This document shows positions 9,123 to 44,519 of a stretch of 64,000 bases of DNA, in pieces. The notes beneath the pieces were generated by a model that was given only the letters and a program-made list of their open reading frames with translations, was not told where the DNA came from and did not search any database. This stretch comes from Collimonas sp. OK412 (GTDB lineage Bacteria; Pseudomonadota; Gammaproteobacteria; Burkholderiales; Burkholderiaceae_D): NCBI RefSeq assembly GCF_900112135.1, contig NZ_FOLC01000008.1, positions 62,001 through 126,000 of the forward strand, given 5' to 3'. Within the stretch, counting starts at the first letter, position 1. Every line of letters begins with the position of its first letter. Made by a program: the position numbers and the translations under genes.

Positions 9123-10358
9123 ATGCAAACCGCAGCCAAGCAGATTTCTCCCGCCATGGGATCGCACGATGCCGAGAAAACCGGTTTTCGCGTACTGGGC
9201 GCCATCAGTTTTGCCCACTTCCTGAATGACATGATCCAGTCGCTGATCTTGTCTATCTATCCGCTGCTGAAGGGAAACTTCAATCTCAGCTTCGCGCAGA
9301 TCGGCCTGATTACCCTGACTTACCAGATCACCGCCTCCATCCTGCAGCCGCTGGTGGGGCTCTACACCGACAAGCATCCGAAGCCGTATTCGCTGGCGCT
9401 GGGCATGGGCTTCACGCTGGTGGGCCTGCTGATCCTGTCGGTCGCGCCCAGCTACGGCATCTTGCTGTTCGCGGCGGCCCTGGTCGGCACCGGCTCGTCG
9501 ATTTTCCATCCGGAGTCGTCGCGGGTGGCGCGCATGGCTTCCGGCGGCCGCCATGGCCTGGCGCAGTCGATTTTCCAGGTGGGCGGCAATGCCGGCAGCT
9601 CCATGGGACCGCTGCTGGCGGCCTGGATCGTGATCCCGCATGGACAGACCAGCATCGCCTGGTTTTCGGCGGCGGCGCTGCTGGCGATCGTGGTGCTGTG
9701 GCAGATCGGCAACTGGTACAAGCGCAAGCGCCAGGAAGCGCAGAACAGGCCGGCCAAGGCAAAGCAGCATTACGTGGCGTTGCCGCGCAAGAAAGTGCTG
9801 TTTTCGGTAGGCATCTTGCTGATGCTGGTTTTCTCGAAATACTTTTACATGGCCAGCCTGAGCAGCTACTTCACGTTTTACCTGATCGACAAATTCCAGC
9901 TGTCGGTGCAGTCGGCGCAGCTGCATTTGTTCATATTCCTGTTTGCGGTGGCGGCCGGCACCGTGCTGGGCGGTCCGATCGGCGACAAGGTCGGCCGCAA
10001 GCTGGTGATCTGGGTCTCTATCCTCGGCGTGGCGCCGTTCACCCTGATGCTGCCGTACGCTAACCTGTTCTGGACCGGTGTGCTGACGGTGGTGATCGGC
10101 GTGATCCTGGCCTCCGCGTTCTCAGCCATCCTGGTATTCGCCCAGGAGCTGGTGCCGGGCAAGGTCGGCACCGTATCCGGCCTGTTTTTCGGTTTCGCCT
10201 TTGGCATGGGCGGCATCGGCGCTGCTGCCTTGGGCAAGCTGGCCGACATGACCAGCATCAGCTTCGTCTACCAGGTCTGTTCTTTCCTGCCGCTGATCGG
10301 CCTGCTGGCAGCGTTCCTGCCGAATCTTGAAGGGCACCGGCGCAAAGCTGCTGTCTGA
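9123..10358 (+). CDS. fsr: MFS efflux transporter, fosmidomycin resistance (Fsr) type
   Basis: A 411-residue, roughly 12-span major facilitator superfamily protein. It matches the Fsr group through FAHFLNDMIQSL near the start, the QPLVGLYTDKHPKPYSL loop, GTGSSIFHPESSRVARMASG and FQVGGNAGSSMGPLLAAW. Fsr proteins export fosmidomycin and probably other compounds. The second half opens after a basic linker (YKRKRQEAQNR) and contains the MFS loop GPIGDKVGRK. It is divergent from an AraC regulator. A copy of the dispersed hairpin element begins right after its stop codon. The substrate in this organism is unknown. Confidence 0.9.
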   Translation: MQTAAKQISPAMGSHDAEKTGFRVLGAISFAHFLNDMIQSLILSIYPLLKGNFNLSFAQIGLITLTYQITASILQPLVGLYTDKHPKPYSLALGMGFTLVGLLILSVAPSYGILLFAAALVGTGSSIFHPESSRVARMASGGRHGLAQSIFQVGGNAGSSMGPLLAAWIVIPHGQTSIAWFSAAALLAIVVLWQIGNWYKRKRQEAQNRPAKAKQHYVALPRKKVLFSVGILLMLVFSKYFYMASLSSYFTFYLIDKFQLSVQSAQLHLFIFLFAVAAGTVLGGPIGDKVGRKLVIWVSILGVAPFTLMLPYANLFWTGVLTVVIGVILASAFSAILVFAQELVPGKVGTVSGLFFGFAFGMGGIGAAALGKLADMTSISFVYQVCSFLPLIGLLAAFLPNLEGHRRKAAV

Positions 10359-10360
10359 TT

Positions 10361-10418
10361 AGTTGAGGACAGAGTAATTCGTCGCGCTTCGGCGACTCTT
10401 AAACTCTGTCCCGCAAAT
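10361..10418 (+). repeat. Dispersed intergenic hairpin element, copy A
   Basis: The outer stem GGACAGAGT (10367-10375) pairs with ACTCTGTCC (10403-10411). The inner stem GTCGC (10381-10385) pairs with GCGAC (10392-10396) around the loop GCTTCG. The core ends in CCCGCAA, as in the three other copies. It fills the short convergent gap between the fsr stop and the peroxiredoxin stop, so it could act as a terminator for either, although there is no clear U-tract. Confidence 0.88.
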
Positions 10419-12460: not shown

Positions 12461-12549
12461 ATTTGCGGGACAGAGTTTAAGAGCCACCGTAGCGTGGCGA
12501 ATTACTCTGTCCTCAAGTGATTAGATAAAACGGTTAAATTGCAAAGGAA
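12461..12549 (-). repeat. Dispersed intergenic hairpin element, copy B (with conserved 5' flank)
   Basis: The outer stem pairs GGACAGAGT (12468-12476) with ACTCTGTCC (12504-12512). The inner stem pairs GCCAC (12483-12487) with GTGGC (12494-12498) around CGTAGC. Two inner pairs differ from copies A and D but remain complementary. Beyond the core, 12518-12546 (TGATTAG, two variable bases, AAAACGGTTAAATTGCAAAG) matches the same flank of copy C. It lies between the zinc-ribbon gene and pfkB, next to the pfkB start. Confidence 0.88.
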
Positions 12550-27403: not shown

Positions 27404-28687
27404 TTAAACCAGCTGCGCGAATGCGCCGCGCGCCGCGGCGATGGTGGCCTCGATCACCGCGTCGTCGTGCTGCGCCGATACGAAACCCGCCTCGAACGCC
27501 GACGGCGCCAGGTATACGCCGGCGTCCAGCATGGCATGGAAGAATTTGTTGAACAGGTCCTTGTTGGACGCCATCACTGTCGCATAACTATCCGGCACCG
27601 CCGCCGCGAAATACAAGCCGAACATGCCGCCGATCGCGTCGCCGCTGAAGGTGACGCCGGCTTCTTTCGCCGCCGCGCTCAAGCCGTTGACCAGCTTGCT
27701 GGTCTGCGTCCCCAGCCTGGTGTAGAAACCAGGCTCCTGGATCAGCTTGAGGGTGCTCATGCCGGCCGCCACCGCTACCGGATTGCCGGACAGCGTGCCG
27801 GCCTGGTACACCGGACCCAGCGGCGCCATGTGGCCCATCAGGTCGGCGCGGCCGCCGAAGGCCGCCACCGGCAGGCCGCCGCCTATCACCTTGCCCAGCG
27901 CGGTGATGTCGGGCTTGATGTCGTACAGCGCCTGGGCGCCGCCCAGCGCTACCCGGAAGCCGCACATGACTTCGTCGAAAATCAGCACGGTGCCGTACTG
28001 CGTGCACAGGCGGCGCATGGTCTGCAGGAATTCCGGCGTCGCGCGCACCAGGTTCATGTTGCCGGCCACCGGCTCGACGATCACGCAGGCGATCTGGTCG
28101 CCCATGTCCTTGAAGGCGTCTTCCAACTGTTGGGCGTTGTTGTAGTCGAGCACCAGGGTATGCTTGACGAAATCTTCCGGCACCCCGGCCGAAGTCGGAT
28201 TGCCGAAGGTCAGCAAGCCGCTGCCGGCCTTGACCAGCAGCGAATCGGCGTGGCCGTGGTAACAGCCTTCGAACTTGACGATCTTGTCGCGGCCGGTGGC
28301 GCCGCGCGCCAGGCGCAGCGCGCTCATGGTGGCTTCAGTGCCGCTCGAGACCAGGCGTACCTGTTCGATCGACGGCACTAGCTTGCAGATCTCTTCGGCG
28401 ATCTCGATTTCACCCTGGGTCGGCGCGCCGAAACTCAGGCCGCGCGCGGCGGCCTCCTGCACCGCCTTGATCACGGCCGGATGGGCGTGGCCGACGATCG
28501 CCGGACCCCAGGAGCCGATGTAGTCGATATAGCGGCGGTCGTCCGCGTCCCAGAAATACGGGCCTTCGGCGCGCGTGATGAAGCGCGGCGTGCCGCCTAC
28601 CGAACGGAAGGCGCGCACCGGCGAATTGACGCCGCCGGGAGTGGTCAGCTGGGCGCGGGCAAACAAAGTGTCGTTATTGGAAGTCAT
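27404..28687 (-). CDS. hemL: Glutamate-1-semialdehyde 2,1-aminomutase
   Basis: HemL converts glutamate-1-semialdehyde to 5-aminolevulinate for haem synthesis, using PLP. The 427-residue protein begins [27 protein letters not shown], typical of the family (shown in part). It contains [52 protein letters not shown] and [18 protein letters not shown], which holds the PLP Lys. Hairpin element copy C lies about 10 nt upstream of the start codon, between it and thiD, and no conventional ribosome-binding site is visible. It is convergent with corA. Confidence 0.97.
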
Positions 28688-28697
28688 AATTTAATAA

Positions 28698-28809
28698 TTG
28701 CGGGAAAGAGCCGCCCGGGTAGGGTTTAAGAGCCACCGCAGCGTGGCGAATTACCCTACCCGGGCGGCTCTGTCCTCAACTGATTAGGAAAAACGGTTAA
28801 ATTGCAAAG
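28698..28809 (-). repeat. Dispersed intergenic hairpin element, copy C (long-stem variant)
   Basis: This copy carries a perfect 19-bp outer stem, 28707-28725 with 28753-28771. Relative to copy B it contains complementary 14-nt insertions in both arms (CCGCCCGGGTAGGG and its reverse complement). The inner stem GCCAC (28732-28736) and GTGGC (28743-28747) equals that of copy B. The flank 28781-28809 (TGATTAG, two variable bases, AAAACGGTTAAATTGCAAAG) also matches B. It lies between thiD and hemL. Confidence 0.9.
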
Positions 28810-28871
28810 AAAAAAATAGGATGCGGAATTCAAAAAAATACTTGAGGTTCTGGAGAGAGGGTAATTGGTTG

Positions 28872-29723
28872 TCAGGGGATCTCGCCGCCATCCTCGTCAT
28901 GCCGCTCCAGCCCCTCTTCGCGGGCCCAGAAATAACGATCGGGGATCAGCTTGCCCATGCCCAGCCGTTGCGCGGCGGTGACGGCCGCCAGGGTGAATTC
29001 CTGCGCCTCGGACACCGCTTCCGGCACGTCAAGGCCGTTGGCCAGCATCGCTGCGATCGCTGCCGACAGGGTGGTGCCGGCGCCGCTGAAAGAGCCCGAA
29101 ACGCGCGGCCAGCTGTCTTGCCGCACCACGCCCGACTCATTGAACAGCGTGTTGCCGATTTCGGCCGCCGGCGTAGGCGTGCCGGTCACGAACAGGTATT
29201 CGCAGCCGAGTTCGATGATGCGCATGGCATCGAGGCTCATCATGTCTTCGGACGAGGGTTCGCGCCAGGTCTCTGCCAGGCGCGACAGTTCCACCGCCGA
29301 TACCAGCATCACCGTGGTCTGCGGAACCAGCAGCTCGCGGATGGCGGTCAGCAGGTCTTCGCTGTCTTGACCCTGATCTGGCATGGCCGATAAAAAAGGG
29401 TCTAGAATCAGCGGGATTTCAGGATAATCCGAGACGATCTCGGCGATCACCGAAACGCTTTCGATGCTGCCGACGGCGCCTACCTTGAAGGCGGACACCG
29501 GCATGTCTTCCAGCAGCACGCGCGCCTGGTCCGCCACCCAGTCAGCGTCGATCTGCTGGGTGTCTTCGATGCGGGCGGTGTCGCCGATCAGGATCGACGT
29601 GATGACGGACAGGCCGTGGCAGCCCATGGCCGAAAACGTGGCCAGGTCAGCCTGGATGCCGGCGGCGCCGACGGGGTCGGCAACGCCGAAGGTCAATATA
29701 AGTGGAGAAGTTTGGTTTTGCAC
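28872..29723 (-). CDS. thiD: Hydroxymethylpyrimidine/phosphomethylpyrimidine kinase
   Basis: ThiD phosphorylates HMP and HMP-P for thiamine synthesis. The 283-residue ribokinase-fold protein has GAAGIQADLATFSAMGCHG near the start, the family's substrate loop, then KVGAVGSIESV, PLILDPFLSA and a C-terminal GSFSGAGTTLSAAIAAML. The last block corresponds to the usual GTGCTLSAAIA motif, but Thr replaces the Cys. ADPVG also replaces the commoner SDSSG. The fold assignment is firm; the two changes leave some doubt about activity or exact substrate. It is divergent from rubredoxin, 56 nt apart. Confidence 0.82.
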   Translation of the reverse strand: MQNQTSPLILTFGVADPVGAAGIQADLATFSAMGCHGLSVITSILIGDTARIEDTQQIDADWVADQARVLLEDMPVSAFKVGAVGSIESVSVIAEIVSDYPEIPLILDPFLSAMPDQGQDSEDLLTAIRELLVPQTTVMLVSAVELSRLAETWREPSSEDMMSLDAMRIIELGCEYLFVTGTPTPAAEIGNTLFNESGVVRQDSWPRVSGSFSGAGTTLSAAIAAMLANGLDVPEAVSEAQEFTLAAVTAAQRLGMGKLIPDRYFWAREEGLERHDEDGGEIP

Positions 29724-44401: not shown

Positions 44402-44463
44402 CGTTATCGTAGTTGTTTCTGTTTTGCACAGTATTACGTAGCTCCAAACTTCCAGTTTAGCCA

Positions 44464-44519
44464 GTTGGGGACAGGGTAATTCGTCGCGCTACGGCGACTC
44501 TTAAACTCTGTCCCGCAAT
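44464..44519 (+). repeat. Dispersed intergenic hairpin element, copy D
   Basis: The outer arms GGACAGGGT (44469-44477) and ACTCTGTCC (44505-44513) are complementary except for one G-T pair. The inner stem GTCGC (44483-44487) and GCGAC (44494-44498) is the same as in copy A. The core ends CCCGCAAT 17 nt before the dihydroorotase-like start. It lies between pyrB and the pyrC'-like gene, in the same orientation to transcription as copies B and C. Confidence 0.88.

Follow-up and report, generated by a model that had tools for sequence, protein, structure and literature searches.

The hairpin that precedes hemL in the window, the 64,000-nt stretch of Collimonas DNA analyzed here, is one copy (copy C) of a palindromic intergenic repeat family, which is present in all 15 Collimonas genomes searched. 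Each arm of the element carries zero, one or two units of 14 (sometimes 15) nt; the left and right arms are associated but separable. As the module counts differ between genomes at matching sites, the units turn over inside site-fixed, REPIN-like palindromes. Judged from the covariation within them, the 14-nt units appear to be self-complementary modules, which fold on themselves. With a probability of about 0.7, we favor the reading that modules are gained and lost arm by arm within palindromes fixed at their sites, the frame being spread by a RAYT and the units being exchanged between copies.

Copy C and its repeat family

Copy C is located between hemL and one thiD-like kinase gene (Table 1). 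The initial annotation claimed a perfect 19-bp stem with complementary 14-nt blocks in both arms, about 20 nt before the hemL start codon; the sequence bears this out. By direct reading and repeat search, AGAGCCGCCCGGGTAGGGT (28707–28725) is the exact reverse complement of 28753–28771, forming 19 bp around one 27-nt loop, and 19 nt separate this stem from the hemL ATG (28687, minus strand). Compared to the short copies of the window, copy C contains the extra block CCGCCCGGGTAGGG in the left arm and its exact reverse complement in the right arm. Below the 19-bp stem, the outer arm has one A–G mismatch (GGGAAAGAG/CTCTGTCC). The minus strand of the thiD–hemL gap has a folding energy of −64.5 kcal/mol, compared to −37.0 ± 3.6 kcal/mol for 200 shuffles (z −7.7).

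Table 1. Parts of copy C, the neighboring genes and the short copies, in window coordinates
Feature	Position	Strand	Remark
Left end of element, TTGC	28698–28701	+	TTG mirrored by CAA 3′ of the right arm
Outer left arm, GGGAAAGAG	28702–28710	+	Family consensus GGGACAGAG
Left-arm 14-nt module, CCGCCCGGGTAGGG	28711–28724	+	Predicted self-pairing 1-2:8-9 and 4-6:12-14, also 3 with the next T
Core, TTTAAGAGCCACCGCAGCGTGGCGAATTA	28725–28753	+	Inner 5-bp hairpin 28732–28736/28743–28747, 6-nt loop
Right-arm 14-nt module, CCCTACCCGGGCGG	28754–28767	+	Exact reverse complement of the left module in copy C
Outer right arm, CTCTGTCC	28768–28775	+	
Tail, TCAACTGATTAG...TTGCAAAG	28776–28809	+	Right side only, common to many copies
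hemL, downstream gene	27404–28687	−	NCBIfam equivalog, clear match
thiD-like kinase gene, upstream	28872–29723	−	Same direction as hemL; best NCBIfam match below cut-off (140.5 vs 205 bits)
Short (0/0) copy	10358–10416	−	Without 14-nt blocks
Short (0/0) copy	12463–12521	+	Without 14-nt blocks; tail continues to about 12550
Short (0/0) copy	44460–44518	−	Without 14-nt blocks

The long form is not confined to the hemL site. The genome of the window (G000, 5.46 Mb) contains eight full-length long copies including copy C, as well as several short ones, in line with the expectation of further long-stem copies. A unique or artefactual stem is ruled out by the other copies in G000 and its relatives; two-arm copies as a class are no assembly artefact, as they are also present in single-contig genomes (e.g. 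G003, G005 and G012). We searched 40 genomes with R1, one covariance model of the long form. R1 matched 17 of them: all 15 Collimonas genomes, two of the nine genomes from other genera of the family and none of the 16 from other families. At E values up to 0.01, there are 7 to 44 matches per Collimonas genome, antisense re-hits counted in. One genome-wide pattern scan returned 33 stretches, 30 in Collimonas, one in an Oxalobacteraceae MAG and two that are apparent chance matches; the latter (L105 and L112) lie outside Oxalobacteraceae, and no similar element was seen at either. Among 399 genomes drawn from the order, the exact unit-plus-arm pattern occurs only in the two of Collimonas.

Other Oxalobacteraceae carry module-less relatives of the family. 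The short-form model (E up to 1e-6) matched 24 of 116 family genomes, belonging to 12 of 44 genera; five of the 24 are Collimonas. At 14 loci read in non-Collimonas genomes, the elements measure about 47 nt or 32–33 nt and contain no unit, with one exception that has a different 20-nt insert. Outside Collimonas, L074 (G016) and L369 (G432) have a different insert of about 20 nt in the right arm, with its own small hairpin. Mini forms of 32–33 nt, with the same outer arms and a different short core, are found in Collimonas and in other genera (L056, L075, L377 and L380). In G002 (e.g. L333, L342, L087 and L338), five of the six parsed copies have GGGAAAGAG instead of GGGACAGAG as outer left arm, with one outer pair broken; five of the parsed copies of G008 also have GGGAAAGAG in this arm.

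Units in the arms and turnover at matching sites

To describe the arms, we applied a fuzzy parser to the retrieved loci; its pattern places a block and then an outer arm on each side of a core of about 29 nt. The parser yielded 177 non-redundant copies from the 15 Collimonas genomes, with copies at matching sites counted singly; the set derives from the matches listed and 108 further regions and is non-exhaustive. There is no block in 97 copies (left/right lengths 0/0), whereas 24 have one in the right arm only (0/14 in 20, 0/15 in four), 10 in the left arm only (14/0 in six, 15/0 in four) and 38 in each arm (14/14 in 36, 14/15 and 15/14 in one each). Seven copies contain 28–30 nt in at least one arm (14/28 in three, 14/30 in one, 28/14 in two and 28/28 in one), and one has a 4-nt block (0/4). 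Four copies were left out of the arm-association analysis, one with the 4-nt block and three that differ from the frame at more than 8 positions. In the remaining 173 copies, a left unit is present in 55, a right unit in 68 and both in 45, compared to 21.6 expected if the arms were independent (Fisher odds ratio 18.6, the significance being inflated because copies at matching sites were counted singly).

For the covariation, module and core comparisons, either a mismatch limit of 9 or fixed lengths were used, and 15-nt units were kept outside the 14-nt counts. The 120 14-nt units end mostly with AGTG (66) or AGGG (37), and in five cases with AGAG. AGAG also closes the arm just before a unit in 52 of 55 left arms and in 62 of 70 right arms, so that both unit borders carry a 4-nt direct repeat, though an imperfect one. 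All five 15-nt left units belong to G008, and similar 15-nt right units occupy four G007 loci and a single G014 locus. This clustering by genome suggests that unit types spread between loci inside one genome.

Copies with both flanks matching form 45 groups with 137 copies; one group has two entries from one genome. The module count differs between genomes in 32 groups, all copies are 0/0 in 10, and the counts are equal and non-0/0 in three. A fixed long-stem clade is ruled out by these mixed states. Counted as flank-matched pairs, 71 differ in one arm, 33 in both and 93 in neither. The modules are somewhat more alike at matching sites than elsewhere (0.837 vs 0.765 for left, 0.778 vs 0.745 for right), and therefore some of them descend vertically.

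The thiD–hemL region was matched in all 15 Collimonas genomes, and only G000, G001 and G006 have any trace of the element there. Both arms contain the block in G000. In G001, a 15-nt block is present in the right arm only, and the distance from hemL to the TTGC end is 8 nt instead of 10. Only the mini form is found in G006, with the outer arms present and the core missing. By eye, no recognizable element was seen in the gap of the other 12 genomes. The initial annotation named relatives with the insertion in a single arm as a refuting case; G001 is such a relative at this very site.

The turnover could reflect either conversion at long-occupied sites or recurrent insertion at one spot. The latter would mean that ready-made variants insert independently at the same preferred positions in different species, and that the sites merely resemble old copies changing inside. 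Consistent with this, core similarity at matching sites (0.862 for 194 pairs) hardly exceeds that of unrelated copies (0.843) or of copies from the same genome (0.847), and the elements lie near genes, with the left end at a median of 8 nt from the upstream stop or 23 nt from the start codon. However, in five flank-matched pairs an identical, sometimes rare, core comes with one unit more or less (e.g. L311/L256, L342/L187 and L285/L300, where rare cores are included, and L346/L289). Moreover, L060 (G003, 14/14) and L081 (G004, 0/0) agree in every printed flanking base on both sides and differ by one core base, yet both arms differ. We consider independent insertion possible, though rather unlikely, as the general explanation.

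Pairing within modules and between arms

Left and right units are mutually inverted; all were read as 5′-NYGCMCGGNNAGKG-3′ from the outer arm inwards. Mutual information was calculated for all column pairs from 174 distinct rows. The top three pairs are unit-internal and the core hairpin pairs come next, whereas the mirror pairs between the arms all stay at or below 0.14 bits. Among the 49 distinct 14-nt units, the pairs 1-9, 2-8, 4-14, 5-13 and 6-12 are formed in 47, 49, 49, 44 and 48, respectively; several pair types occur at each of 1-9, 2-8, 4-14 and 5-13. All five pairs are present in 112 of the 120 modules. With the next T included, 97.3% of 294 cells are paired, and the within-module covariation score is 0.479, compared to 0.191 for shuffled and at most 0.140 for slid pairings. 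Non-pairs are commoner in right-arm units read on the plus strand (90.3% and 97.2% paired) than in left-arm units (99.3–100%). Since the unit-internal pairs cross, they imply a pseudoknot-like form or two alternative small hairpins. The crossing helices, of only 2 and 3–4 bp in 14–15 nt, are perhaps too small for stability on their own.

In comparison of whole-element models, self-pairing modules leave 97.3% of cells paired, with double changes in 63 cells. The long-stem model reaches 87.4% and 42 double changes, part of which lie in the core helix common to both; it beats its own shuffles on three of five measures, partly through this shared helix. In the 36 two-arm copies, cross-arm complementarity is 10.08 of 14, compared to 9.93 ± 0.19 after shuffling within genomes (P 0.23) and 9.86 ± 0.21 after global shuffling (P 0.15); the consensus common to left and right units keeps it substantial. 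Exactly complementary 14-nt arms are found only in copy C and L060, and L005 and L061 match at 13 of 14 positions. The perfect stem of copy C arises because both arms hold the same module type. Taken together, the covariation within units and the cross-arm matching, which is no better than shuffled, indicate that the family conserves something other than the 19-bp stem.

Compensatory changes within modules would also be expected of an RNA function, in which the modules would be small protein- or ligand-binding folds in intercistronic mRNA, acting in cis and kept by selection for regulation. Gene context was obtained from one home-made codon-usage gene caller, and 82 copies had enough context. 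None of the 82 lies inside a called gene; the element is thus intergenic. Co-directional gene pairs surround 74 of 81 copies, in both orientations (42 and 32 of the 81); with one copy per site, the ratio is 45 of 49, compared to 63 of 89 control gaps of 60–400 nt (odds ratio 4.6, P 0.005). This placement makes it probable that transcription passes through the elements and that they form structures in intercistronic RNA. One site is common to 11 genomes. Against a conserved regulatory role, the module number at a given site varies between species (32 of the 45 groups), 12 of the 15 genomes lack a recognizable element before hemL, and one Rfam scan of 28600–28900 gave nine sub-threshold matches, none close to its gathering score. 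We regard such cis-acting regulation as unlikely to be what maintains the modules.

The initial annotation proposed template switching across the hairpin or a distinct long-stem subfamily. In such switching, one arm would be copied from the other during replication, which would give the exact match in copy C. Quasi-palindrome correction by template switching would turn the arms of a hairpin into exact complements of each other, the state of copies C and L060. L005 (G000) and L062 (G010) would fit such a process well: they share flanks, and their left units differ at six positions. That of L005 is exactly complementary to the L062 right unit, from which the right unit of L005 itself differs by one base. 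However, the left unit of L005 is also present in L277 (G005), and its source may be another locus. The blocks of the two arms are associated, and in 24 flank-matched pairs each arm differs by one block; coordinated insertion as a rule is not supported, with blocks in a single arm in 34 of 177 copies. L290, the sole copy with two units in each arm, does not have the unit order of a mirror copy. Correction of this kind leaves unexplained the single-arm units, the tandem units and the unmatched arms of most two-arm copies. Given that the 36 two-arm copies show no more cross-arm complementarity than their within-genome shuffles, template switching across the hairpin does not in general account for the units, and we consider it distinctly improbable as their common source. 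In single copies (L005 vs L062, perhaps copy C) the sequences make it possible.

Proposed working, the hemL site and known systems

The element consists of one constant frame, the outer stem GGGACAGAG/CTCTGTCC around the 5-bp core hairpin. Each arm holds 0, 1 or 2 units in the space that separates its outer part from the core, and each unit is able to pair within itself. As left and right units are inverted, an element with one unit type in both arms resembles a single long, perfect stem; copy C is such a case. According to the reading we favor, the base hairpin was probably spread by one RAYT-type single-strand transposase acting on GGG(A/T)CAGAGT ends. Units are probably copied between copies, or lost, through short-homology recombination or replication template switching in single-strand stages.

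One Y1 transposase (PF01797, RAYT-like) is present above cut-off in all 15 Collimonas genomes, and 5 of 14 control genomes match too. The conserved copy is broken in G001; several Collimonas genomes contain further, more distant Y1 genes. G001 is 1.7 Mb in size and near-complete by estimate, and it has 19 R1 matches despite its broken conserved RAYT copy. In G000, the Y1 transposase is 240 residues in length, with GGGTCAGAGT upstream and ACTCTGTCCC plus ACTCTGACCC downstream; these ends resemble GGGACAGAGT/ACTCTGTCCC of the element. In 14 of the 15 genomes, the gene is flanked by GGGTCAGAGT upstream and/or ACTCTG(T/A)CCC downstream, and only these ends of roughly 10 nt are shared with the element. 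Over 20 loci, the search for a full element next to the RAYT-like gene gave one weak match (E 0.18), and no excised or newly inserted copy was seen. G000 also contains a second hairpin repeat, AAATGGGGTCAGAGTTTTTTTTCGCG...ACTCTGACCCCATTTAA (L173 and L174, contig 26, from position 1501). Its ends are closer to the repeats flanking the RAYT gene than the ends of copy C's family are.

Outside Collimonas, 19 genomes have a short-form match, and in all 10 of them that were examined such ends lie on both sides of the Y1 gene. Among 12 examined genomes without short-form match, the ends lie on both sides in three (one with a different motif) and downstream only in five more; 6 of the 36 Y1 gene matches of this survey had no inspectable locus. 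The Y1 gene with such ends and the short-form element thus co-occur, which is not proof. By this indirect link, the RAYT-type transposase is the likely mobilizer of the element.

A bolder version holds that the 14-nt unit itself is a mobile or enzymatically exchanged cassette, which a RAYT-type HUH transposase would cut from, and join into, fixed palindromes. Its substrate would be one minimal self-paired single strand with AGNG borders (AGAG where the arm ends, mostly AGKG where the unit ends), the letters at the cut end being paired with letters within the unit. If true, few precisely exchanged DNA units would be smaller, and the 15-nt left units of G008 and other unit types specific to one genome would be accounted for. 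We put this forward as a speculation with a low chance of being correct.

At the hemL site, a mild effect of the element on hemL mRNA processing or translation is possible, judging from sequence. The initial annotation suggested that the stem could strongly affect haem precursor synthesis; 12 of the 15 genomes have no recognizable element in this gap, and G006 has only the mini form. It is highly improbable that copy C is a transcription terminator or attenuator of hemL: the stem is very stable and stands directly before the start codon, but no T run follows it on either strand, scans of 28640–28900 yielded no promoter- or terminator-like site, and the element in the thiD–hemL gap is not conserved.

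The single hairpin thus becomes a dataset, in which gain, loss and copying of one 14-nt self-complementary unit can be traced at dozens of matching sites across species. Questions about the internal changes of REPIN-like palindromes within genomes and about the substrates of RAYTs thereby become directly testable. It is also a warning that the perfect long stem of one copy may not be the structure that the family conserves. Among the matches listed from the open-licence PMC literature, no description of the repeat was recognized, and the word Collimonas is absent from the REP literature searched for it.

According to the excerpts of Bertels and Rainey (2011, PMC3116915) used here, REPINs are inverted REP pairs that form hairpins, with RAYT genes nearby; compensatory changes occur across the long hairpin, and the legend of Figure S11 mentions an alternative clover fold. 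Excerpts from Quentin et al. (2018, PMC6006769) describe a GT[AG]G foot (GTAG or GTGG, the 5′ foot of the hairpin) for REPs, some classes being atypical in structure, and PMC2817692, likewise in excerpt, gives a copy number usually above 100 per genome. Measured against these excerpts, the Collimonas element is similar: it is one short intergenic palindrome with inverted ends and a hairpin, and the genome contains a Y1 transposase gene, beside which lie repeats with similar ends but not the full element. It differs in its foot, which in the copies printed is TTGCGGGACAG or close variants and not GTAG/GTGG; in its copy number, at most tens (7 to 44 R1 matches) per genome; and in covarying inside each unit, whereas the compensatory changes of REPINs described there run across the long hairpin. 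A further difference is the variable number of 14-nt units per arm. In this last respect it resembles pneumococcal BOX, of which the excerpts of Croucher et al. (2011, PMC3049150) state that the number of internal boxB units varies at the same insertion site between strains, and that boxB has a predicted fold making few contacts with the remainder of BOX. The Collimonas element, too, has fixed ends and a variable internal unit number at the same site. Different from BOX as described there, its units are 14–15 nt in length and lie in both arms in opposite orientation, with at most two seen per arm; the likeness concerns the modular working alone, and no membership of the BOX family is claimed.
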